64,000 nucleotides of DNA from Trileptium ribeirensis (taxonomy: Eukaryota > Nematoda > Enoplea > Enoplida > Thoracostomopsidae): NCBI GenBank assembly GCA_030248225.1, contig JASANE010024883.1, positions 1 to 64,000 of the forward strand, given 5' to 3'. The notes beneath the pieces are model-generated. The model saw only the letters and a list, made by a program, of their open reading frames with translations. It had not been told where the DNA came from and did no database searches. A program made the translations under genes and the position numbers. Shown piece by piece: positions 1,561-60,965 of this stretch (its first letter is position 1; each line of letters starts with the position of its first letter).

Positions 1561-4500
1561 CTTAAATACACATGAACGACCAACTTGCTAGGTTTCTAAG
1601 GGTTCGACCTATATACCGCCCAACCAGGCATATATCTCTATATACATGCATGCATATATCTGTATATACTTGCATACATATTTTATCAGGAATGCTAATT
1701 TTTGGGGTGGGACACCAGACAATATATGATGGGCTTACTTGCTATATTCCTTGGGGGGGGGCACAACCCCCAAGTGCTCTCAGGTGTTTGTGCTTATGGC
1801 GCTATTGTCCGACACTACCTTAAAACAATAAGTCAAGGTATTTACAACCTTTAATGTAAACAATGCACAAAATCTATGTTCATTCGCAGCGTTACGCAGC
1901 GTCATCGACATTATTGAGCATCTTGAGTTCTTCACTTCAGTCATCGTCATCTTCAGTTGAGCAGTTTTAAAAACATTGGATATTCCATAAGCTCAAAACA
2001 ACAATTTATTGCTGATGATTCCAAACGGGAGAAATGGAGTGCGACATGTTTTACTTTTCATTTCCCAAAAGTACTGAACGAATCCTACCTAGTTTCTGCA
2101 CCCTCGAGATACTTTTAGCAGCCCTGGTGCTGCTGATGGTGCTTATCACTGTTATAAACCCCTCAGTTTATAAAAATTGACAATATGCCTTTCTAAACTC
2201 CACAGTCCAACGAAAAATTTGATAACCTGAAATTTACATTCCCCGTTTGCAAAGTTTGTTTCATCTGACAATAATGTTCCATATTCCTTGTTTAATGGAA
2301 TCGATTACCTGGCCCCTGGGTTCACGGACTCCTGGATTTTTAGCCAAAGCTGCAGCTTATAACAGAGGAATTGGAAACAGGACTTTTTTGATGTAAAAAG
2401 TTACAAGTGTCGCGATAGTTTACGCTTTTCGAGCGTAGCACTTTGGAGTCACATGTTGAAAATGAAGATGTTTTGGCTTACTCAGCTAATCAGTTTGAAA
2501 CAAATTACATTGATATTTGGTTATTAGTTAGCATTTCACTAGGGAAATACCTGAATTCCGTTGCGCTAGTCGTATTATTTATTCCATTTTGCGAGTCAAA
2601 TTTGAAATCAAATAGCTGAGTATTACAGTAACGGTTGTGCAGTTTCAATTTTACCAATTGTACCTATCTGCAGCTCCCTATATGTTTATTTTAAAGTGAC
2701 AGATTCAAATCAGTTTGCCATAATATAGTAGAGGACGTTGAACAAGGGATATTATTCGCAGTTCCAGCGAATAAAACACCGGACTAGAAAACATGAACAA
2801 AACAATTATTTAAATATGTGCCATTTCCAATAAATTGCAGCAAATCATAAGCTTATTTAATTGCCTTGCAAAAATATTTTGTTCACAAACTGCAGACAAC
2901 TTTCTCCAATTTTGATGGCGACTAATGGAAACACAATGTCTGTATATGTAATAATTTTGCTCAAAATAGAAATATGGACTTGGGAAATTCAAGGAAAGCA
3001 CGCGAAATTTATCACAGTCCAAAAGTTCGGTAATACGAGTATAGCCTAAGTGCGAATTCGGTGAGATGACAGAATCTATTACAGTTAGTAATAATCTAAT
3101 GTTAATCTCTATTCAAATGACACAAATGAAAAAGTAATGAGTCAAGCCTGAGTTAAAATCAAAGCAGCGCTACCAAAAAATAGATAATACGTCGAACATA
3201 AAGCCCGAGTAACACCTAAAGCTAAACAATGTTATGAAAGATTAACTGATAAAAAATTAATTGCAAATAATTAGACCAACCAATTGATAGGTCCTGATTT
3301 CTTAGTTATTTAATTGATCGGTTGGCTTCCAAACCCATGGATGTTTGGTTGGATTTATGTACTGTGTGCTTCGACGCAAAACTAAGATCGGAGAAGCAAA
3401 TATAGGGCAAAACAAGTCTAAGTTCTGATGGATTCTTGGATTTTTTAACATTCTGCAAAATAATTGTTTCTGTTTTTTGGTGTACTATACATGTAACATC
3501 TGTGATATATATATATATATAAAGATGTATGCTCAAGTAGGAAATTAAATGTATACGGCAAATAAGAACGCATTATATAATCTATTATATTATACACAAA
3601 ACCATAATCTAACTGGAGCCATGGTCATCCTTAAATAGGCTTCTAGATGGGAAATTAAATTCGTAAAGTCACTTAGTCTATGATATATAAGCACTAGACA
3701 TCACATCAGATAAGTTTAGCAGGAAATACTTCGAATCAAGCCTTTATGCAGCAGAGCGCTGATATTAGGGCTCACATTTTATATATCCCATTTTTGTTCC
3801 ACTATTACCTGCGATTATGATGGAACAACATTGCGGAAAAACACCATTGTTGTATGCTTTATGGTTGCTTTTTGTTGGTATATATTTTGTTTTAAAAATT
3901 CTGTTTTTACTGGCTTTTTGAATTTTACATATACATATTGTGTGCAAATAATTGCGATAATGGATTTCTAAATTGAACAATTAAAATTGATAGATTGGTT
4001 AACAAATAACCGACTGATGATCTGTCCAATTAATTGTCTACACCACCAATGATGATAATCGCAGTATGGTCATTTGATTTAATTAATTGTTTCAATCATA
4101 CAGTTGTAAGGAGCACAAAGGCCGCATGCAAGATCTATCGTCTCGGACAGACCGCCTCACTTATGGCATCTCAGTACTGTAACTTCGTCCAGATAAGATA
4201 GCGGAAAGTTTTTAACAATATCATCAATCATTATGAACCAATATTGCAAGTCTATCTGGGTTTTTTCAAGGTGTTTGCGTACTGTGGTCAGAAACCAAAA
4301 GACCACTGAAATTTAAATAAATTTCCGTGCTTCGAGCTTTGGACCATAAAATCTAAATTTGATGGTCTCGAACACCGTGTAGATCAAACATATTTCATGT
4401 TGGCAGAAAAACACTTGGACGAGACAGTCCAAGGTACCGCCAACACAGTAAAAACTGCACTGTGTGCTGTAGAAATTGCACTTAATCCATAGACTATACA

Positions 4501-17146: not shown

Positions 17147-17206
17147 TATGTACAATATGTTATCCTAAACACAGAGCCTAATGCACAACAAGAACTAGCC
17201 GCTTAC

Positions 17207-17392
17207 CCTGGCCTTTGGTTTTATGCAGTTGAATCGGTGAGTAGCCGTAACGGACGTCGTCCGGATCATCAGAGTTGGTAAAAACGCTGACTGACTGAAT
17301 TTCGTATTCGGTATCAGGTTGGAGGCCAGTGATAACGACGGTAAAGTTGTCGCCAACTGGCTCCGTTTTGCTCCAAGATTCGTTGCCGGTAC
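17207..17392 (-). CDS. Exon G: main part of the last FN3 domain (probably FN3-5)
   Basis: The acceptor is CAACCCAG|GTACCGG, and the donor GGCCAGG|GTAAGC. The exon is 186 nt, phase 1 in and out. It encodes GNESWSKTEPVGDNFTVVIT, GLQPDTEYEIQSVSVFTNSD and a DDPDDVRYGYSPIQLH tail: the first Trp is the C' strand marker, and GLQPDTEYEIQSVSV is a near-perfect FN3 E/F-strand motif. Together with F it gives about 95 residues, one FN3 domain. In neuroglian/L1 proteins the domain after this would be followed by a membrane segment. None was seen next, but exon H is in phase. Confidence 0.85.
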
Positions 17393-17887
17393 CTGGGTTG
17401 CACCATAATAATGTATAAAAATAATTATTATATGGTTTGGAAACGAATATTTCAATCTGAAGGTTCGGGGAAGCGTTAGGAGTCTAAATGAAATGTGAAG
17501 TTTCCTTTGGCTGAGTGTGAGGCTGAGACCTAGTCGAGATCGGTGTAGTGCTCATTTAATTCAAATCCTTAAACTTTGTACTGGAACTTATCGTTTGTCA
17601 TACTAAACAAGAGGTCAGGCAAGGGAGGATGTAACATATATCCCCTTAACAAACACAGCTACTCGGCGTTAAGCTAATATAAATGATGTAGCAAAAGATT
17701 AACGATTTCGAAGCAAAACTTTCGTTGAATCCTACGGCTTGCAGGCTGATCCCAAATGCACGGTATAAATAATAGGTCGATGTTCGCTCGCTCCAAAAGT
17801 CAAATTTACTTCTAGTAAGCACTGTTTCGTTTCGAAAGCGATGTTTCGTTATAAATAGTTTTAAACGTATTTAAAACCTTAATCATT

Positions 17888-19028
17888 CGAAGCGACTATT
17901 GCATACATTGTACTTCGGAGCTTATAAACTTTAGAAATTGCATACACTGTACTTCGGAGCTTATAAAGTTTAGCAATTACATACATCGTACTTCGGAGCT
18001 GCTTATAAACTTTAGCAATTGCATACATTGTACTTCGGAGCTTATAAACTTCAGCAATTGCATACACTGTACTTCGGAGCTTATAAACTTTAGCAATTGC
18101 ATGCATTGCACTTCGGAGCTTATAAACTTTAGCAATTGCATACACTGTACTTCGGAGCTTATAAACTTTAGCAGTTGCATACACTGTACTTCGGAGCTTA
18201 TAAACTTTAGCAGTTGCATACACTGTACTTCGGAGCTTATAAACTTTAGCAATTGCATACACTGTACTTCGGAGCTTATAAACATTAGCAATTGCATGCA
18301 TTGTACTTCGGAGCTTATAAACTTTAGCAATTGCATATATTGTACTTCGGAGCTTATAAACTTTAGCAGTTGCATACACTCTACTTCGGAGCTTATAAAC
18401 TTTAGCAATTGCATACACTGTACTTCGGAGCTTATAAACTTTAGCAATCGCATACATGGTACTTCGGAGCTTATAAACTTTAGCAATTGCATACATTGTA
18501 CTTCGGAGCTTATAAACTTTAGCAATTGCATACACTGTACTTCGAAGCTTATAAACTTTAGCAGTTGCATACATGGTACTTCGGAGCTTATAAACTTTAG
18601 CAATTGCATACACTGTACTTCGGAGCTTATAACCTTTAGCAATTGCATACACTGTACTTTGGAGCTTATAAGCTTTAGCAGCTGCATACACTATACTTCG
18701 GAGCTTATAAACTTTAGCAACTGCATACACTGTACATCGGAGCTTATAAACTTTAGCAATTGCATACACTGTACTTCGGAGCTTATAAACTTTAGCAATT
18801 GCATACACTGTACTTCGGAGCTTATAAACTTTAGCAATTGCATACACTATACTTCGGAGCTTATAAACTTTAGCAGTTTCATACACTGTACTTCGGAGCT
18901 TATAAACTTTAGCAATTGCATACACTGTACTTCGGAGCTTATAAACTTAAGCAATTGCATACATTGTACTTCGGAGCTTATAAACTTTAGCAACTGCATA
19001 CATTGTAGGAGCTTATAAACTTTAGCAA
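17888..19028. repeat. 39-bp minisatellite, about 29 copies
   Basis: A 39-bp unit containing TTCGGAGCTTATAAACTTT and AGCAATTGCATACACTGTAC repeats almost perfectly from about 17.9 to 19.0 kb. The copies between 18078 and 18975 are spaced at exactly 39 bp. One early copy carries a 3-bp insertion and the last lacks 4 bp. As 39 is divisible by 3, two minus frames and one plus frame stay open for 200-350 codons of 13-residue repeats (for example AIAKVYKLRSTVY). It lies wholly within the F-G intron. Each unit carries a TATAAA and the palindrome GCAATTGC. There are no unique spacers, so it is not a CRISPR array. Confidence 0.97.
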
Positions 19029-19357
19029 TATAATGCTCGGTTGGAGGGCAGCTTGAGTAATTCCAATTCGGCGATTCAAAATAAATGTCATTTAACAAAT
19101 AATTTAAGGTCATAGGTGACAACTTCAGCTGATGATACATCCAATGCATATTATAAGCTTGTTTTGAAGCTAAATCAGTAGTTCAGTATATAAAAGAATG
19201 GTCGACAGAGATGAGATTCAAAACCATAACCGTAGACTTTACGCCGTTGCGCTCTAACCATGAAAGTACTCTGGGCGTTGGTTCCAATCGTAAAGCTGTT
19301 GCTGACGTGCTGTGCTTCTGTGTCCGTCTTTAACTCGACTTTATAAAAATCAGGTAC

Positions 19358-29073: not shown

Positions 29074-30014
29074 ACTAGTCGTTAGTGGCATTACATTTGT
29101 GAGCGGAGCTTGGGCTGTGGCATACGAATGTACTCAATTTTATGTTCTTGTAATTACATTGCATAGGGCATAGGGCTTTATCATTGGTAAAAATATTATA
29201 TTTGAATTCTTCGACCCAAAAACCCTATAATGTTTGATCGAAACGATTCTATTTCAATAAATAACACAAATATTGCAAAATTCTCTATTTTAGCTGCATA
29301 AAATTAACTAATTAGTTAATTACTAATTAACCACTCAAAATTTTTTAATCCCAAATATCAGGTGCACACTCTGACATGATAGGCTTTCAAACAAAAAAAA
29401 GTTTTTTAAAATCCGTTCAGTGGTTCTTGAGATCCGTCGGACCGAACGAACGAACGGACGGACATCGACCTTTTTAGTCCCAGACGGAAAATAACTAGTC
29501 GGTAGTGGAACTACATTTGTGAGCGGAGCTTGGGCTGTGGCATTACGAATGTACTCAATTTTATGTTCTTGTAACTACATTGCATAGGGCATAGGACTTT
29601 ATCATTGGTAAAAATATTATATTTGAATTCTTCGACCCAAAAACCCTATAATGGTTGGATCGAAACGATTCTATTTCAATAAATAACACAAATATTGCAA
29701 AATTCTCTATTTTAGCTGCACAAAATTAACTAATTAGCTAATTACTAATTAACTACTCAAAATTTTGTAATCCCAAATATCAGGTGCACACTTTGACATG
29801 ATAGGCTTTCAAACAAAAAAAAGTTTTTTAAAATCCGTTCAGTGGTTCTTGAGATCCGTCGGACCGAACGAACGAACGGACGGACATCGACCTTTTTACT
29901 CCCAGACAGAAAATAACTAGTCGGTAGTGGAACTACATTTGTGAGCGGAGCTTGGGGTCGGACCGAACGAACGAACGGACGGACATCGACCTTTTTACTC
30001 ACAGACAGAAAATA
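29074..30014. repeat. 421-bp tandem repeat, two full copies plus a partial third
   Basis: ACTAGTCGTTAGTGG / ACTAGTCGGTAGTGG starts recur at 29074, 29494 and 29916 (periods 420 and 422). Each full unit contains GTGAGCGGAGCTTGGGCTGT, a spacer, TTGAGATCCGTCGGACC, a (GAAC)n(GGAC)n run and GACATCGACCTTTTTA. The third copy jumps early from the first motif to the GAACGAACGG run, so it has an internal deletion. The array is nested in the 28734-30610 element. Confidence 0.9.
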
Positions 30015-38135: not shown

Positions 38136-38951
38136 TTTGTTATTTATTTCACCTGAAGCTAAAAATTTGATTAAAGAAAATGAAAATTAGCGAACAAAAT
38201 TAGTACTTTTAACTAATAATAAGTATGTCAAAACTATTTGACATTCGTTATTAACCATTACATACGTGCCATATTTCAGAATAATTTCGGTACAAAATAT
38301 AATTCTAACCAAATAGCAAATTTGCTTTGTCAAATACAGATATTCTGTCATTGTTCCATTTTACACAAATTCAGAAATAGTTCCAAAATAAAATAACTGT
38401 GGTATTAATCCAACCAAAATTATTACGTCACGCCCCACCATGGCTTCACTTTAGCGGCGGTACCATACCAGTGCACCCATGGGAGCCTAATGACAAAAGT
38501 AAAAAACGGAAATTTATACCATTAAACCAAGAGTACATAACGGAAGACTGTGACACTTCACACTGCTATAATTTAAGCCCATGTTATATGGGAGGGCGTT
38601 TACGGTCATATCCATCTTATTTTTTGGGATTTAAACACATCGACATCCCATAAAACTGGGTGAATATGTTTCCTCAGAAATAAGGAAGGTACGACTAAAT
38701 ACGCACGTGACATCTAAAACAGGTTTCCATTACGTGTGAGGAAATGGGGAACACACTTTTACTTTATGCACTTTTGATAAACTTTGGCACCTATTACATA
38801 CACAGCCAGCAATACCATTTGGTTACGTAAATGCGATGTAAGTATAACGCCCAGTAAGTAATTGAGAATTGAGGACCTGAACTATTCAAAACAATGTGAC
38901 TGGCCAACAATACCAAACCTATCAGCATTCTAAAAATATGTAACTTCTTAC

Positions 38952-39185
38952 AGCTAGTATCGGAGGTAAGTCCATCGGGGGTCGGCAGTGTTTTGACTAC
39001 GGCTCCACTTGGCGGACCTGAACCTTGCTCGGTATAACCACGGAGCTCGATTTTGTAAAGCGAGTCTGGTTTTAGCTTATGGTCGTCTACTGGCTGGAGA
39101 CGAAATTCGCGCATTTTCGGGTCTTCGAGTAGCTGCTGTACCGGTGCACCGCGATCAGCAACTTCGTCGTCCGTTTTCTTTTCGA
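38952..39185 (-). CDS. Exon E: canonical second half of the FN3-4 domain
   Basis: The acceptor is AATTTTAG|TCGAAAAG, and the donor AGCT|GTAAGA. The exon is 234 nt, phase 1 in and out. Joined to C it reads NLTYTL-V-EKKTDDEV and completes an FN3 domain. LLEDPKMREFRLQPV matches the 'DP..T.....L' segment of neuroglian-type FN3-4, and KPDSLYKIELRGYTEQGSG followed by PPS is the E-F-G strand signature. The end (TLPTPDG) is the linker to the next domain. E ends in phase 1 whereas the recognised frame of exon F needs phase 2, so a connecting exon or another splice site must exist. Confidence 0.85.
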
Positions 39186-39612
39186 CTAAAATTAGTAATA
39201 AGTATTCAATCACAATCATTAAGCTATACACATGTTCAATGCGAAAACATCAAACAGTGGAATGCATAGTTCAAATCGAAAGAAACCACTACGCGCTTAA
39301 ATGAAGCTTTGACGTTTGGAATAACGTACAAAAGTTTGGTGGCGCTTAAATTATTTGGCCGCAGAACAATCAATTGAAACTATAATGAAAGCCAATAAAT
39401 AGTATAACTATGTGTGACACTGATTATATCCGTGTGCCTGAATTTTGTAAATATGGTTTTTCTCAACTTATTTCAGTTCGCATTTCACGTGGCTAGCCAA
39501 TGCTAGGAAATGCCGCAAATCTAAACGAAATGATTTATGTATTTATGCAAAACGAATACTGGATTCGGCAAACACCAGATTATTCTGGAATTTTGTTTCA
39601 AAGGTTTCTAAC

Positions 39613-39801: not shown

Positions 39802-39896
39802 CTACAATCAATACCCACTTAACTAATGGTAGTAATTATTCAAAAATCGATAATTACATTCATTTTTGTATACTACATAACGTACCAAAAACTCAC

Positions 39897-40019
39897 CAAG
39901 AGTGTAAGTGAGATTATATCCTTTGAGTTCGCCGTTGTGTTCTATCGGATCTTCCCACATAAGGGCTATTTCCTCATCAGATAGAGGATACACGTCAAGT
40001 GAGCGCAGATTTCCGGGTC
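39897..40019 (-). CDS. Exon C: first half of the next FN3 domain (probably FN3-4)
   Basis: The acceptor TATTATAG is followed by GACCCGG, and the donor is CTTG|GTGAGT. The exon is 123 nt, phase 1 in and phase 1 out. With the A from exon B the join reads MPPG-R-PGNLRSLDV. It encodes IALMWEDPIEHNGELKGYN, the B-strand Trp and the N-G-x-L-x-G-Y turn typical of neuroglian/L1 FN3-4. The exon ends in strand C (LTYTL). Two downstream exons (D and E) could complete the fold in the same phase. Confidence 0.88.
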
Positions 40020-40079
40020 CTATAATATTGATCATAAGATAACAATAATATCGAATTGGGTGAAATTTTCTGCTCCAGG

Positions 40080-40660
40080 AGTACTACACAAATGAACTAA
40101 AATATTATACTGCCGATGCTTATATTGAAGCTCAACAGTTGCGGACCGAAATAATATCTATTTGTCAGCAATAAATCTACGAACAGCAGGTGACCAGCAG
40201 ATAATTCGCAATAGCTTCGCGAGGAGTACTCCACACATGAACTAAAATATTATACCACCGATGCTTATATTGAAGCTCAACAGTTGCGGACCGAAATAAT
40301 ATCTATTTGTCAGCAATAAATCTACGAACAGCAGGTGACCAGCAGATAATTCGCAATAGCTTCGCGAGGAGTACTCCACACATGAACTAAAATATTATAC
40401 CACCGATGCTTATGTTGAAGCTCAACAGTCACGGACCGAAATAATGTCAAGTTGTTAGCGATAAATCTACGAACAGCAGGTGACCAGCAGATAATTCGCA
40501 ATAGCTTCGCGAGGAGTACTCCACACATGAACTAAAATATTATACCACTGATGCTTATATTGAAGCTCAACAGTTACGAACCGAAATAATATCAAGTTGT
40601 TAGCGATAAATCTACGAACAGCAGGTGACCAGCAGATGATTCGCGAAAGCTTCGTGAGAG
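40080..40660. repeat. Tandem repeat, about 4 copies of a 145-bp unit
   Basis: The start of the unit (GTACTNCACA) recurs at about 40080, 40226, 40371 and 40516, giving periods of 146, 145 and 145 bp. The copies are nearly identical, including the GAACAGCAGGTGACCAGCAG segment. The last copy diverges at its right end. The array lies in the B-C intron and begins only about 60 bp upstream of the exon C acceptor, so its right-to-left transcript runs straight into that splice site. Confidence 0.9.
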
Positions 40661-41879
40661 TAAAAAATATATTTCTATTGCTGGAGCATTTAAGATACAC
40701 ACGCACTTGCGTGGTAACAATAAACGTATCAATAAAAGCCGTGCAATATAGCAAATGCATTGTCTATTAAATAGGCACATTTTTCTAAATATAGGCATTT
40801 AGCTAATTTATTGTAGAAGAAGTCAGCTAGATTGGTAAACTTTTATTAAAGTTTATTCATTTTCGACTTGCTGGCCGATGCCAGTTTTCATTGTCTCGAC
40901 GATTCAAATGTCCCAAATGTCCAAGAGTGTTGAGTGTCATTGTACCGCACAATAAGCTCACTATCGGCTTGACACCTAAACGAATCGCCCCTTTAGTGAA
41001 TTGAAATATATGTAAAACCGACACTCATATTTATTTTGTTGTTGAGCGGTGCGAAGTGAAACGGTTTTGTTTTCATCAGAGGGGGTAAAGTCGGCGCCGG
41101 CTGTCCGTACGTCCCGCAAACTCCTCAATAACTATTGAGTCGGGTTTGGAATTTTTTCTTGAAACGCATATCCTTCAGGTGGAAGACATAGTTTTTGTAA
41201 AAATTTTCGTTAATTAGTAAATTAACAAATAGTTAAGCGTGTTAACAATAATTGCTTATCTTTCGATGTATGATTATTGTAAAGCTATTATTTTGGTGCA
41301 TATTCTAGTGTCTAGTGTTTATTATTATACGAATCTAGTGTTTATTATTATTCGAATTACAAAGATGCTAATAAGTTAATTAGCTAATTTTTTGAAAATT
41401 TTCAAAGTGCTCACAAATGAAAAAAAATTTCACACGGGAGTTTTCGATGTCGCTGATCACGAATATGACATTTCATAAGCTCTAAAACTTGGCCATACAT
41501 ACTCGCAAAACTATCGAAAAAATACATAATATTTGAAATCAAGACATGTGCGTCAATATTAAATATTTATGTAACTTTGTAGATGTCCAAGTTTTTATCA
41601 ATTCTTTCTGAGCGTAATGCAATTTTGTTTCGAACAGTTTTTTGTTACTATGTAAGAATTAGGTGCTCAATTCGCTATATATACATAACTATTGTTTGGC
41701 TGGTTGTGATGATACTGCCATGTTAGTGCATTTCGGTCTCATTGACACATATTAAACGCTATGAAAATAAAACATTTTCAGTGTCCCATTTAAAAACCCA
41801 TTTTACCTAATCCTAGAACAAGAAATCAAATTTACTGTGCTACATTAAAGCTTCACCGGTGTAAAAACTTCATCACCAC

Positions 41880-55277: not shown

Positions 55278-55523
55278 GAACCGACTCCGAATGGCCGGCT
55301 CACCCAGCAAGCAATGCACGGATCCACCTGTTCTACTCGCTCTGGCTTTCTCACTTGACACTTGGGGCCGAAATTTGTAAGCTATTATTAACTACTATAG
55401 TTAATACTGTTGGGGCAGGTGCCTTTTTCACCACAAAATTTTTCTTTTTCTTTTCACTAAAGGCCGCCCTGGTATTCCCTGTCGCCCTCGGCATGGCATT
55501 TGAGCGTAATGTGTACGTATAGA
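55278..55523 (+). other. Hydrophobic open frame without ATG start
   Basis: A plus frame runs from a TGA at about 55275 to a TAG at about 55521. A possible acceptor (GCTCACCCAG) lies near its start. Its second half is strikingly hydrophobic (TIVNTVGAGAFFTTKFFFFF then SLKAALVFPVALGMAFERNV), like one or two membrane helices. The minus strand is also open. No family is recognised. The Phe run comes from a TTTTTC tract, so chance is quite possible. Confidence 0.2.
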
Positions 55524-55564
55524 TGTATGTATAGCCTGTTATATATGATATAGAACTAGCTATG

Positions 55565-56363
55565 TATTTATCTATAAATATATAAAATATAATAAAATAT
55601 ATATACTTATCAAAATTCCCCATCCCCATAAATTCCCCAAAACCTAAATTTCTTTAAATAAAATTTATACAAAACACACTTTTTCTTTTTCCCCACCCTT
55701 TTTCCTACAATATATTCCTTACTCACCCTTTTCTTTTACACCCAACCAAAATTTTACCCAAAATCCATTTTTCTCCTTTTTCCCATTTTTCTACTAAAAT
55801 TCAAACTACCCTCCCACCCCCAATACCTAACCAAACCCCTCCAAAATTTAATATTTTCTTCCCCTTTCCTCCTCTATCAAAATATCTAAACCTTCCGTTT
55901 CCCCTCTTATCTTTTCCCATAAAATTTTATTTTTCTAAATTTTCACTTTTTCCTCATTTTTCTCCATTTTTCAAACATTCCCCATTCCCTCAAAACTCAA
56001 CCCCCATCCCCTAAATTTTAATATCCTTTTTCCCTTACCACCCCTATTCATATATCTACCCCACCCCTTTCCCACCACTCTATTTTCCATAAATTTATAT
56101 TTTCCAAAATTCCCATTTTTCCCCCAACTTTTCACATTTTACAAACATCTCCTATTTTATCAAATCTTAACCCCCACTCCTCAAAATTAAAATACAAACT
56201 CCCCTACCTACCCCCTTCACCATATTAAAATTTCACAATCCCCCTCTTTATACTTTTCTCAAACCACACCCCAACTTTCCACCCCTTTTCTCATTTCAAA
56301 TTTCTCATTTAAATTCCTTTTTAAATTATACTAAATAAATATATAATATATATTATTATATTC
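55565..56363. repeat. G-depleted satellite-like tract (one G in 799 bases on the plus strand)
   Basis: Only one G (55897) occurs on the plus strand over 799 bases, although C is frequent (many CCCC and CCACCC runs). The tract is built of diverged tandem units of about 170 bp: TAATATTTTCTTCCCC, TAATATCCTTTTTCCC and AAAATACAAACTCCC landmarks fall at about 55850, 56018 and 56188. Pyrimidine-rich runs alternate with AAAATTT. Both edges are AT-rich. It contains no gene. Confidence 0.95.
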
Positions 56364-57158
56364 GCGGCAAGCGCGTGTTATGTAAATATGATATAGGGTA
56401 TTGTTATTTTCGCCGGTTGGGCGTCTTCCATTGGTATACATGGTTACTCATTGTTGTATAGTGAATTTAATAATGATAATGTTAGTAGTTATGTGATTAT
56501 GATGGTTGCAGTTTTTAGTTTTCAATTAATTACTTAGCTAATTTAAGGGAGTTTATCATAGGGTAATACTACGTGTCAATTTTAAGGTAGACGGTGTTAA
56601 TGTTTTCTTTCGATAGCGGTGGTGCGTATGGAGACCGATAAGGCCATTCTGATTAATATTAGCGATGTTTTAAATCTAATCCGAATTTACTGATTGAGTT
56701 GCAGAAAGGGTTATGTCATGGTTTTCACCTATGTTTTTCTTTATTTCTGTTTCTCATGATTCTCTTCGGAAATAGTCCTCGGATATTGATAAGTGAATTG
56801 CGAGTCAACATAGAAGCCCATGTAAATTTGGATATTCAGGACAGAATCGTTTTGAGAAATTGGTAGCTAGCGTGTTTTAACGTACATGGTGGTGCGTTGT
56901 CTAGCGTATAATAGTACGGTATTTGTTTTATCATATTGCTATGCACAAGTTGATGGATGCCTAGTCGAATAGATGATGGCTAAAGGTACTAGAAGCTTCG
57001 TTAATTGGTTTCGTGTGGATTGTGCGTAATATTTTAAAGCGTGGCGAAAATGTTTCGTCCCGTTGCAAAGCCTTGGTAGAACCGCGAGGTATTATCAATG
57101 TATCGTCATCCATAGCGTTGCTATTACGTTGGTTACGAATACATTCATATGAATAGCT
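56364..57158. other. G/T-rich, C-poor interval, no gene seen
   Basis: Immediately right of the G-depleted tract the plus strand becomes G- and T-rich with few C (GGGTATTGTTATTTTCGCCG, GATAATGTTAGTAGTTATGT). It starts with a CGCGGCAAGCGCG near-palindrome. It lies where the 3' part of the minus-strand reverse transcriptase would be expected, but no further RT motif is readable. Confidence 0.4.
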
Positions 57159-57161
57159 TTA

Positions 57162-57950
57162 TGCGAGTTTCGCTTGATGCGGGATGAATCCAAATTGAGA
57201 TAGATTAAAAAGATTATTATTTGCGACGTAACGAATTAGCTGCTTTTGTACAAGCTTTTCAAGTATTTTACTAATACAAGATGTTAAGCTAATAGCTCTA
57301 TAATTACCAACATCCTCACGATCACCTTTTTACACAGCGGAATGACATTTGCTTCCAACCAATGGGCCGGGAAAGCATCTGTTCGTAAAATTTTTTTAAA
57401 CAATTTAAACAGTGGTATTGCCAACACCACCGCAGAATTTCTTATAACACAATTGGGGATATTGTCCGGACCGGGTGACGAATCAAGCTTCACAGCCTGG
57501 CACAACCTAAGCACATCAATACTTTCAAACTCCACTGTTTCAATCCGTAAAGTTGTTTGCTGCATTACCGGAGGACCTGTTTCATTATTATTTGAAAATA
57601 CACTGGAGAAATAACTGTTGAAAAGATTAGCACATACTTGAGGATCCGAGATGTAGCTTCCATTGTATAGCAGTGGGCCGCAGACTGATTCCGGTTTCAG
57701 CCGGGAACGAGTGTAGGACCAGAAGTTTTTGTGATGACTGCCTAGCTTATTAGCTAAATTTGTTTGATACCTTGACTTTGCGCGAGATATTTCGGCGTTA
57801 GTTAAATTAGTAATTTGACGATAATGCAGGTACGATGCATGAGTTTTGGAACGCTGGTATGCACGTTGGGCGTTTCTTTGCCGTATCGCTACGGATTGGT
57901 AGTCTTTAGCTAAAGTTGTAGCTACAGATTGGTCTCCCGGAGCAAACGAA
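57162..57950 (-). mobile_element. Jockey/CR1-like non-LTR retrotransposon, N-terminal part of reverse transcriptase (broken)
   Basis: Read on the minus strand, the fragment starts in the linker before the RT (RNAQRAYQRSKTH ... SRAKSRYQ ... HHKNFWSY ... GPLLYNGSYISDPQVCANLF ... YFSSVF), then shows the RT entry motif SSPGPDNIPNCVIRNSA, FPAHWLEANVIPLCKK, and after a frameshift GDREDVGNYRAISLTSCISK, ILEKLV and LSQFGFIPHQ. These are motifs of jockey/CR1-clade RTs in the right order. The frame is broken at least once and the match ends abruptly after FGFIPHQ. The element is inactive here. Confidence 0.88.
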
Positions 57951-58984
57951 AACTTACGAAACCTATTACCACTTTACTAGCACTCTAGACCACGAACTCG
58001 TGCCCCAGCTAGAGAAGAGTATAATTGGTGGTCACGATTGTGACTCAATTGTAAACGTTGTGTATTATAGTGACTGCTGGGGGTCGGAGCACCGCGCGAG
58101 CACGAAGTTATACTGCCGTACGAAAAGTTTAAGCTCCGACAGTCGGGTACTGAATTATTACGTTGGATTAGCTTTAATATTGTTCTTAGTAAAAGTTGTG
58201 ATCGGTTACATAGCTAATGGGTTACGCCAGCACCAGTGTGTTATTGCCACGGCGCTTAGTTTTGGTTCTCGGAGGTGATAGCTGGAAGTAGACGGAGTGT
58301 TACAAAAGGTTTCTAAAGTGGTGGCTTGTATTTTTTGGAGTTTCTGATTTTACTAACCGCTAATTTAACGTAAAATATTACACTGCACCTGAATCTTCTG
58401 TTATGTATTGATTTTGGCTTTGGAACTGTTTACCCGTATTAAAGAACGGCGCTGTAACGGTGCTAAACTTCATAAATAAGTATTTTACGAAATAGTTAAG
58501 TTATTAATACTAATCTTCCTTATAAAAACCCTTAGTGGCTATAAGTTTAATAGGAGCGGCGTCATATTAACAAATAATAGTTAGTTAAAGCTTACAATTT
58601 CGGCCATTACGTGCGTGTCACGTGAGTAATATCAGGGTGAGTAGCACAGGTGGGCTTTTGGTTAGTAGTGCGACTGGTCAGCAGCTGTACGGGGCGGCTC
58701 AGCAAGAAGCGCTATTCTTGAGGAGACTGGGCGAGTAAGGGTAGTGGAATCGAATTACACCATCGAGCACCAATTTATCCCAAATTGTCTGATAAGTCAG
58801 CTGTACGGGGGCTTGCCTTTTGAGAAAAGCTCGACTGAATAGTAGTCGACCGCTACTACACAGTTGTATTTAACGTAGTTCGTCAGCCAGTCGGGTGCGA
58901 CTTGTGTAATATAACCGGCAAGTATTAGCATAAACCTAAGGTCTAGGCTGAGGTAATCAATTAACCCTGTAATCGCTAGCCGGT
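57951..58984. other. Interval between the two RT halves
   Basis: This holds two unrecognised open frames: a plus-strand one at 58000-58278 with a hydrophobic C-terminal half (VGLALILFLVKVVIGYIANG), and a minus-strand one at 58797-59000 containing CVVAVDYYS, faintly like a retroelement integrase strand. Neither is strong enough to name. If the RT halves arose by one inverted insertion, this could be the upstream part of the element. Confidence 0.3.
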
Positions 58985-59410
58985 CGGCAGTCGGCTGCAA
59001 AGCGTTCTACTTGTACACAGCTTTTGGAATGTTTCGATGACTGGTCCATTTCACTGGATATGGGAAATTTAGTTGATATTGTTTATATCGATTCTGCCAA
59101 AGCCTTTGATACAGTATCGCACAAGAAATTGTTGCACAAACTTTCATCGTTCGGTATCTGTCTTAAAGAACAGGCGGTTTCGTGGAAGAGTAAATGAAAC
59201 TTGCTCTATATATTATCCAGTAACTTCAGGTGTGCCGCAAGGCTGTGTACTTGGTCCTTCGCTGTTTCTGTTGTATATAAATGATATCAATAATTATGTT
59301 ATGCCTAATGTTAATTGCAAAATTTTTGCTGATGATATTAAACTTTATGTTCATGCTCAGGTCCTCGGAAATCTCGGGAAATTGTTGAAAAGTGGCGCGA
59401 TAAATACCTG
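58985..59410 (+). mobile_element. Jockey/CR1-like retrotransposon, central RT part including the FADD catalytic box (broken)
   Basis: On the plus strand the frame reads [46 protein letters not shown], then after a deletion and frameshift [40 protein letters not shown] and [12 protein letters not shown]. These are RT motifs A ([10 protein letters not shown], with its catalytic Asp), B ([11 protein letters not shown]) and C (FADD). The fragment begins exactly where the minus-strand half stops in the RT order. It is interrupted and inactive. Confidence 0.9.
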
Positions 59411-60965
59411 AGAAAATATTGGCCAAAAATTAATCCTGAGTCGTTGATATTCTATTTTTATTTCAGATATGTATTTCAAATGCGCGTCTGAAATAGTACG
59501 CATTGCTAGATACTAAGCTTAAATAATTGTGGAGATATAGATTGCTAACCTCTTCACACGATCAAAATTTTACCTTGGAGGTTTTAAGTTGGGAGTTGGT
59601 TTTAAGGCTAGCTCCGCCCTAGGGGAATATCCACCCAAGTTCGCTGTGGGTCAATCGTGCCTCCCAAGTCATCCAGGCTTTTTGTAATTGAATTTTATCA
59701 CTTTTTTGCATTTACATCATGTTATTTATTTTAGCTAGTTAATTTTACCGCATATTTATTATTTAGCAACTGAAAATCTGATTTTACTTTAGATTTTGCC
59801 ATGAATAGTCGAAACATAAGAAGTTGTAGTGTCTTTTGATATTGCTGTTTTTTAAGACGATCATTTTTGGTCTCACTTCAAAATACTTGGGGAGCTGCCG
59901 AAATCGTATCATTTTCTAAGGGGAGCCAGGATTTTTATGGCTGCACAATTTCAGTAAAATTGATTTTCTTGATTAAAACTTCGGGGATGGGGGATGTGGT
60001 ATCGAAACAGAAGAAATTTTCGGGTCCTTTTAAATCGGCGACCGCCCCACCCCAAGTATACATACGTATCCAAAAAGCACAGACTAGTCCCGATACACGC
60101 CGGCCTCCTACCTTCACTGCAATATTCATCATTTAGCCACTGTTTGCAGGTTACATGCTATAGTGTTTATTTTTTCAATTTATTGCGACCAATTGACGGT
60201 GTCGAAAATGAAGAATTGTATCATTTTAGGTAATTTTTAAGTATAGGTGTACACATTATTGCTTAAGTACTTATATTAACGAGTTGCACGGTTACTATAA
60301 AGCAACTCGGACATTTTTGAGCCAAAGATTGTCGAAATGGTGTGATATATGACGTCTTATATCGAACTATTATATTTTACGTAGGATGCATTACAGGGAT
60401 GCATTAACGTCTGAGCTTATGGCATATAGTTTGTGTCCCTAAGGTAACATAGTGTTATAGCATATTTTGCTATATAGATGTGTAGTATTTTTGCGCAGTT
60501 TTCGTAAAATGTTTGAAGAGTGCTTCTTGGTCCTTTAGGCACAACTTGATGAACTTGTGCTCCAAAGTTTAGATGAATGAAATCATTCTCAATGAATAAA
60601 GGTAGGAAATCTCGACAGACAATCAAGTCCATGGTGCCACCTTACTAAAAGAAATATGCGTTTCACTGCGTAAATGATCGAAACATTTTTGGAACGGAAC
60701 GTTCGAATTTCGGGAAACAGTTGTGTTCTGTATTCCATGTACGTTGACCGTGGACGGTTTTCATTGTCTTTAGCTTTAAACAACTTTGGCACCCTTCATT
60801 TCTACGAAGACTAGACCCGAACTCGGGGTGTCGTCAACTGTTTCGGGGATATGTTTTTCCAACTGCATCAGAGGGGAAAACGTGAAATGACTACAATAGG
60901 ACAAAAATTTAAGGTTTATTTGTGAGGCCCTTAGGCTCAGTCTATAGAGCCAAGACGAGACGAGC

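Follow-up and report, generated by a model that had tools for sequence, protein, structure and literature searches.

The question raised by this locus is what could keep one base out of one strand of DNA over some 800 nucleotides in which the complementary base is abundant. In the window, by which we mean the whole 64-kb stretch analyzed (64,000 nucleotides of contig JASANE010024883.1 of Trileptium ribeirensis), the tract from 55565 to 56363 counts 799 nt, with A 245, C 247, G 1, and T 306; the initial annotation, which had reported a 799-bp tract with one G on the plus strand, was thus right on this point. The sole G lies at 55897 and is a singleton among the 40 aligned copies described below. 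The second-longest G-free run in the window is only 76 nt, and by simple arithmetic the probability of drawing no more than a single G across 799 independent bases, at the window's 18% G, is less than 1e-60. The A+T content is 69% in the tract and 66% in its C-rich core, whose G+C content (34%) is near that of the window (37%). It follows that the region is not especially AT-rich and that nearly all of its G:C pairs put the C on the plus strand. The features to which we refer are as follows.

55408 to 58141, plus strand: long terminal repeat (LTR) of the window, TGTTGGGGC...GCTCCGACA, solo or rearranged
55565 to 56363, plus strand: G-free segment (sense strand, one G)
55565 to 55611, plus strand: AT-rich left end of the G-free segment, with CTAGCTATG directly before it
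55612 to 56330, plus strand: C-rich core, about four diverged units of about 170 nt, some of them partial
55612 to 55748, 55749 to 55918, 55919 to 56086, 56087 to 56255, and 56256 to 56330, plus strand: core units as cut
56331 to 56363, plus strand: AT-rich right end of the G-free segment, with the GC-rich border GCGGC after it
57080 to 57963, no strand assigned: part of the window LTR mostly without counterpart, matched by none of the 39 other copies save for 58 bases in copy L023
57964 to 58141, plus strand: right end of the LTR, with more than 80 nt matched in 30 of the 39 other copies

The tract is internally repetitive. Its self-identity at a lag of 170 nt is 50.5% versus the 33.7% expected (z 8.4), the best-lag identity among 300 Markov-resampled sequences reaching at most 43.7%, and a blastn self-comparison matches 55715 to 56050 with 55893 to 56219 at 67% identity. 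The three longest units (2 to 4) are 56 to 62% identical pairwise in a MAFFT multiple alignment. In this alignment, units 3 and 4 differed at 63 of 167 positions (C/T 32, A/T 19, A/C 12), and none of these mismatches involved G. The period of about 170 bp, the divergence, and the tandem order described in the initial annotation stand, but the repeats are no satellite: about four partly incomplete units lie within one LTR, and a stand-alone array was rejected since no long series of similar monomers is present. A 10-bp periodicity of A/T tracts was not prominent in the tract, the peaks being harmonics of 170; minus-strand G4 motifs with runs of at least 3 numbered none with loops of up to 7 and one with loops of up to 12. 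Pairing between the two AT-rich ends as a closing stem was no higher than in shuffled sequences (mean z -0.8, 40 copies). Scans of the whole window with Rfam, at the gathering threshold, and for tRNAs gave no match. Elsewhere the window holds a 39-bp tandem repeat in 29 copies (17898 to 19029), open in several frames on both strands, and further tandem repeats at 40077 to 40662 (145 bp, 4 copies) and 29074 to 29956 (422 bp, 2 copies). Weak fibronectin type III matches, below the Pfam cut-off, occur on the minus strand at 17178 to 17483, 38794 to 39249, and 39823 to 40083; they may be exons of a gene of the cell-adhesion type.

The tract occupies a fixed place within the LTR of a multicopy Ty3/gypsy-type retrotransposon. 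The longest alignment of each other copy to the window begins exactly at 55408 in 29 of 39 cases and between 55403 and 55410 in 37 of 39, and the LTR has TG...CA ends, with the start TGTTGGGG in 34 and the end CTCCGACA in 29 of 40 copies. Its length is 2734 nt in the window and 2151 nt in copy L009. A purine tract (PPT), TACTAAGGGG, precedes 14 of the 40 LTRs, and TGGTGGCCATGACG, a candidate primer binding site (PBS) to which no tRNA has been assigned, follows 7 of them. Both are missing alongside the window LTR, whose 5-bp flanks differ (AATAC and GTCGG), so that this copy is a solo or rearranged LTR. Seven LTRs that lack PPT and PBS could be read at both ends; identical 5-bp flanks were found in five of them (L020, L024, L027, L029, and L033), the window and L012 being the two without. 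A 14-nt direct repeat around the tract, once considered as a target duplication, was dropped after the LTR ends had been located. The LTR of L016 has the PPT on its left and the PBS-like sequence on its right, i.e., a tandem LTR-internal-LTR-internal arrangement.

In the internal region of L048, Pfam identified RVT_1 (4.8e-14) followed by H2C2 (9.4e-14) and rve (1.8e-13), and the order of reverse transcriptase before integrase is the basis on which we assign the element to the Ty3/gypsy type. The integrase has at least 110 matches at 77 to 100% identity in the genome (from 109 candidates scored out of 6030). Such an anatomy, in which the tract sits inside an LTR with PPT, PBS, 5-bp duplications, and a pol region, speaks against the nuclear copy of an organelle control region that had been offered as one explanation of the skew. 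Downstream of the integrase of L048 lies a PHD finger (2229 to 2621; Pfam 1.1e-6). The element also has a second open frame, a long one, ahead of the 3' LTR (3214 to 5001 in L048, 3 to 911 in L009). For this second frame, searches of Pfam, NCBIfam, PDB, and the protein collection turned up nothing convincing. By eye we took it to resemble an EXD1/Egalitarian-type exonuclease, an identity that we abandoned, as none of these searches supported it and a single-sequence structure model had a mean pLDDT of 35.5. In the window itself, the LTR stretch from 57080 to 57963 overlaps a minus-strand open frame (57284 to 57973) that resembles a reverse transcriptase and for which a Pfam search returned no match; a reverse transcriptase fragment (Pfam RVT_1, 9e-9) lies on the plus strand at 59073 to 59411.

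In L011 the frame that follows the 5' LTR, and in L009 the final frame ahead of the 3' LTR, read on the G-free strand, and hence the sense RNA of the element is the G-free one. Furthermore, AATAAA occurs 240 to 310 nt ahead of the LTR end in 26 of 29 copies, and anywhere in the scanned stretch in 27 of 29; a TATAAA-like site is found in just 9 of 29 LTR right ends. The position of AATAAA near the right end suggests that the tract is located in U3, and thus in the 3' part of the RNA, although a long R containing the tract is a possible alternative. A role of the tract as a 5' leader was dropped once this AATAAA had been found. Since the last frame ends at position 914 of L009 and AATAAA lies near 3693, a 3' untranslated region (UTR) of more than 2 kb is expected.

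The family was retrieved from the whole assembly (687,459,628 bases, 687 Mb, in 20,229 contigs). The tract search yielded 1153 first-look candidates, and scoring of 40 gave 42 matches, namely, the window, 39 others that are 85 to 93% identical and almost always of full length, and a further two that are short second matches; the main set of 40 copies consists of the window and the 39 best-scoring others, without these last two. All 39 lie on contigs different from that of the window and share its property, which makes an assembly accident at the window locus unlikely. In the tract core (window 55575 to 56350), the 40 copies carry 0 to 5 Gs each, with none in 9 of the 40, while their mean divergence is 13%. 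In the 23 of 40 copies with both borders found, the length between borders is 781 to 800 nt.

In order to see how G behaves among these copies, variants were split by their frequency, counting only changes from a non-G majority and leaving aside columns in which fewer than 30 of the 40 copies had a letter (the thresholds in the other sets were 40 of 56 and 12 of 16). Of the variants shared by at least two copies, 2 of the 406 in the tract were changes to G, versus 85 of the 248 in the LTR flanks on either side (Fisher p 7e-38), whereas singletons were changes to G in 58 of 266 cases in the tract versus 44 of 174 in the flanks (Fisher p 0.42); these p values overstate the significance, as related copies are not independent. 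For variants in at least three copies, the figures were 0 of 292 and 65 of 192. The two shared tract Gs are found in L014 and L046 and in L010 and L027, copies on different contigs, and may be recurrent mutations. We infer that singletons are mostly changes that occurred after insertion and that shared variants were inherited by spreading lineages. Thus, in statistical terms, lineages that spread hardly ever carry a G in the tract, though G mutations arise at about the ordinary rate in inserted copies.

Counts against the column majority gave a similar picture. A-to-G changes affect 0.3% of the A cells of the tract (29 of 9081, 39 copies) and 4.2% and 4.9% of those in two left-flank controls (16 copies each). 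All changes to G amount to 59 of 2459 in the tract; the two left-flank stretches give 215 of 925 and 272 of 1067, and the right flank (17 copies) gives 99 of 319, these flank totals also counting changes away from G, which are impossible in the tract. Among pairs of similar copies the result was mixed, with 0 of 16 tract differences involving G in L019/L016, 1 of 15 in L009/L011, 5 of 25 in L013/L015, and 6 of 31 in L032/L046. The number of G singletons per copy correlates with the other tract singletons (rho 0.43, p 0.005) and shows no clear correlation with flank singletons (rho 0.24, p 0.14).

A near-normal rate of singleton G together with a near absence of shared G points to purifying selection against G, which appears to be what keeps the tract G-free, rather than mutation bias, youth, or artifact. 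That selection keeps G out had been among the possibilities raised at the outset, and the contrast between shared and singleton variants speaks in its favor. By the usual fixation formula, the deficit of about 70-fold corresponds to a scaled selection of only about 5 to 6, so a single G need be only slightly harmful. The other three bases interchange freely, the shared changes in the tract being C>T 138, T>C 88, A>C 51, A>T 46, T>A 44, and C>A 37, and for this reason the constraint is probably "no G" itself. At A, the tract shows 51 A>C and 46 A>T versus 16 A>C and 33 A>T in the flanks; the higher share of A>C in the tract is unexplained.

The same spectrum bears on the idea that G is removed by mutation, namely, that minus-strand cytosines of the tract are deaminated or cut during reverse transcription. 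Such a purge would account for a loss of G confined to spreading lineages; however, it would have to be limited to the tract, as the flanks retain G, and it should raise the shared changes to A. The tract shows no such rise, T>A making up 44 of 132 T>A plus T>C changes versus 43 of 94 in the flanks, and C>A 37 of 175 C>A plus C>T changes versus 5 of 20, nor is A enriched in the tract. A mutational purge is therefore quite improbable in our estimation, and the G-to-A editing suggested by the initial annotation is disfavored both by these shares and by the singleton rate given above. It could also be that only one G-containing signal is avoided, such as an AG acceptor after pyrimidine runs, a GT donor, AUG, or CpG. 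A pyrimidine-rich sense RNA would be prone to cryptic splice acceptors. Nevertheless, singleton Gs occur after and before each of the other three bases (preceded by T 21, C 24, A 13; followed by T 24, C 21, A 13). If AG, GT, or CG alone were barred, many shared Gs should be left, yet there are 2 among the 40 copies and none in three or more, so that the avoidance of a single signal, already disfavored, is left with a very small probability.

Since the first 40 copies had been chosen by their likeness to a G-free query, a second sample was drawn by searching with only the right end of the LTR (371 nt from L009); this search gave 921 candidates, of which 40 were scored and 20 of these fetched. 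Rows omitted among the first 25 were three already in the first set, one too near a contig start, and C13999, which was left out without good reason. The tract was present in 16 of the 20 LTRs thus picked without its use, with 1 to 10 Gs in the matched stretch, a count in which full-length matches include up to four border Gs. It was lacking in L058 (deletion), in L070 (LTR parts only), and in L064 and L072 (where nothing at the fetched place matched the LTR). In L058, whose right end is 96% like that of L009, the deletion at 1361 to 1367 has removed the tract together with some 170 nt on its right side (L009 2004 to 2967).

In the 16 copies of the second sample, shared variants to G were 2 of 298 in the tract versus 28 of 66 in the flanks, and variants in at least three copies 2 of 245 versus 19 of 42. 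Singletons to G were 32 of 245 (13%) versus 16 of 69 (23%), a tract share below that of the first set; with so few copies, some of these singletons may have been inherited. With all 56 copies together, the tract and flank figures were 6 of 505 and 57 of 180 for shared variants, 3 of 394 and 46 of 145 for variants in at least three copies, and 86 of 338 and 31 of 99 for singletons. Moreover, six relatives fetched from more distant integrases yielded three tracts (L049 ran off the contig end, and L052 and L053 had none there). Identity to L009 is 75.8% in L050, 70.5% in L054 (cut short), and 66.3% in L051, with 12 Gs in 790 nt, 7 in 596 nt, and 6 in 836 nt, respectively, and to-G substitutions relative to L009 number 6 of 185, 3 of 165, and 4 of 262. 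In L054, the gap between LTR start and tract (about 475 to 1887) is about 1.4 kb longer than in L009, by insertion or rearrangement.

That no selection is at work, the tract being a young satellite, an organelle copy, or an assembly error, is an explanation for which we found no support; many dispersed and diverged copies of the tract lie within the LTR, the flanks of these very copies serve as an internal control and keep their G, and we regard this reading as extremely improbable. In particular, a very young array born from a G-less seed, as formerly entertained, clashes with the mean divergence among the 40 copies and with the three subfamily copies that are 24 to 34% diverged and still nearly G-free.

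Which property, then, would require the absence of G and be indifferent to the identity of the remaining bases? G alone supplies a partner for C and a second partner for U. Because C without G has no partner, the simplest candidate would be an unpaired sense strand, and the predicted folding is consistent with it: the minimum free energy of 715 nt of the sense tract (L016) is -2.4 kcal/mol, versus -198 and -192 kcal/mol for stretches of equal length elsewhere in the element (L009) and -47 kcal/mol for the antisense of the tract. One random G shifts the predicted energy by -0.59 kcal/mol on average, and another base by +0.09 (60 trials each). It is possible to hypothesize that the element keeps a structure-free segment of about 0.8 kb in the 3' part (U3) of its RNA, and in the plus strand copied from it, because pairing in this segment would slow one step of the life cycle. 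The step might be the survival or export of an RNA whose 3' UTR is long, or else the reverse transcription that follows the first strand transfer. We put this proposal forward tentatively, as one with somewhat less than an even chance of being correct. Several observations weigh against it. A-U pairing is not avoided as well; a single G would alter the predicted folding only slightly, so that selection on each site would need to be weak and yet effective; and the LTR of L058 is without the tract, while TATAAA-like sites are as scarce as stated above. Avoidance of structure beyond the lack of G was not found, the tract being at least as structured as sequences obtained by shuffling its dinucleotides (mean z -1.9, i.e., slightly more structured, with energies of -0.5 to -12.5 kcal/mol in 10 copies).

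The sense RNA could instead act through pyrimidine-binding proteins, as a PTB/PCBP stability element. It is indeed pyrimidine rich, with 33 runs of CCC or longer and many U runs, and PTBP1 is reported to protect RNAs with long 3' UTRs (PMC4764554), to which the expected 3' UTR would correspond. Motifs for these proteins would constrain C and changes from pyrimidine to A. However, C is the least conserved base of the tract (88.7% versus 94.2% for A and 92.6% for T, 40 copies) and the shared C>A and T>A changes (37 and 44) are common, so that no conserved pyrimidine motifs emerge from base-level conservation and spectrum. We therefore hold such motif binding to be improbable.

The main rival of the unpaired sense strand is a role at the DNA level. 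The tract might be a giant base-unpairing region ("ATC" sequence), as in matrix attachment regions, through which a SATB-like or other nuclear protein would insulate or anchor the copy. Base-unpairing regions, as described in PMC12490858, have only A, T, and C on one strand and at least 65% AT, and extend over 200 to 300 bp, with ATC segments of 25 to 50 bp that lack either G or C on one strand. The tract agrees with that description in composition, both as a whole (799 nt, A+T 69%) and in its core (66%), and a rule that leaves A, T, and C free and bars G is what its variants follow. On the other hand, those segments may lack either base, whereas in the copies examined it is throughout the sense strand of the tract that is without G. 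This uniformity of the sense strand over 800 nt favors, with modest confidence, a reader of RNA or of single-stranded cDNA, and we consider the DNA-level role unlikely on balance, while giving it appreciable weight.

Whatever reads the tract, it may represent a "base-exclusion element," by which we mean a cis-acting stretch of a retroelement conserved mainly in lacking one base on the sense strand, a lack maintained by purifying selection at some 780 sites while identity drops to 66%; we rate this generalization as evenly poised between right and wrong. Noncoding constraint is mostly read from conserved letters; here, the letters drift and the absence of G alone is kept, so that ordinary conservation scores would miss the constraint. 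A test of the substitution spectrum that compares shared with singleton variants by target base does detect it. Should an unpaired strand of RNA or cDNA be the cause, the copies would offer a natural series of structure-free segments, diverse in sequence, with which to gauge the cost of RNA structure for a retroelement.

Among known systems, the element is closest to Ty3/gypsy LTR retrotransposons with long LTRs containing tandem repeats, with which it shares the TG...CA ends, 5-bp duplications, PPT, PBS-like sequence, and reverse transcriptase before integrase. To our knowledge, no Ty3/gypsy-type element has an LTR segment of about 800 nt from which one base is excluded by selection, and a literature search on G-free repeats or LTRs gave no such report among the matches listed. 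The omega leader of tobacco mosaic virus is a G-free translational leader and the "G-less cassette" is a synthetic laboratory DNA, both with little RNA structure; the RNA is likewise G-free here, but those are a short 5' leader and a synthetic sequence, whereas the tract is an 800-nt segment upstream of a likely poly(A) signal. The telomeric HeT-A, TART, and TAHRE elements of Drosophila are also retroelements with a strand composition bias, with G-rich motifs on the noncoding strand; in PMC10088271 this bias is called subtle, and different from those elements, the tract shows no G4 pattern. Base-unpairing sequences, the targets of SATB1, resemble the tract in having A, T, and C on one strand and at least 65% AT, a likeness of sequence alone; the tract is about three times longer, is G-free on one strand only, and is part of a mobile element. 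A known 400-nt pyrimidine-rich RNA element of a retroelement shares the pyrimidine richness and the long 3' UTR, but it directly follows the gag stop codon, whereas in our tract it is the absence of G, and not the identity of the pyrimidines, that is conserved.
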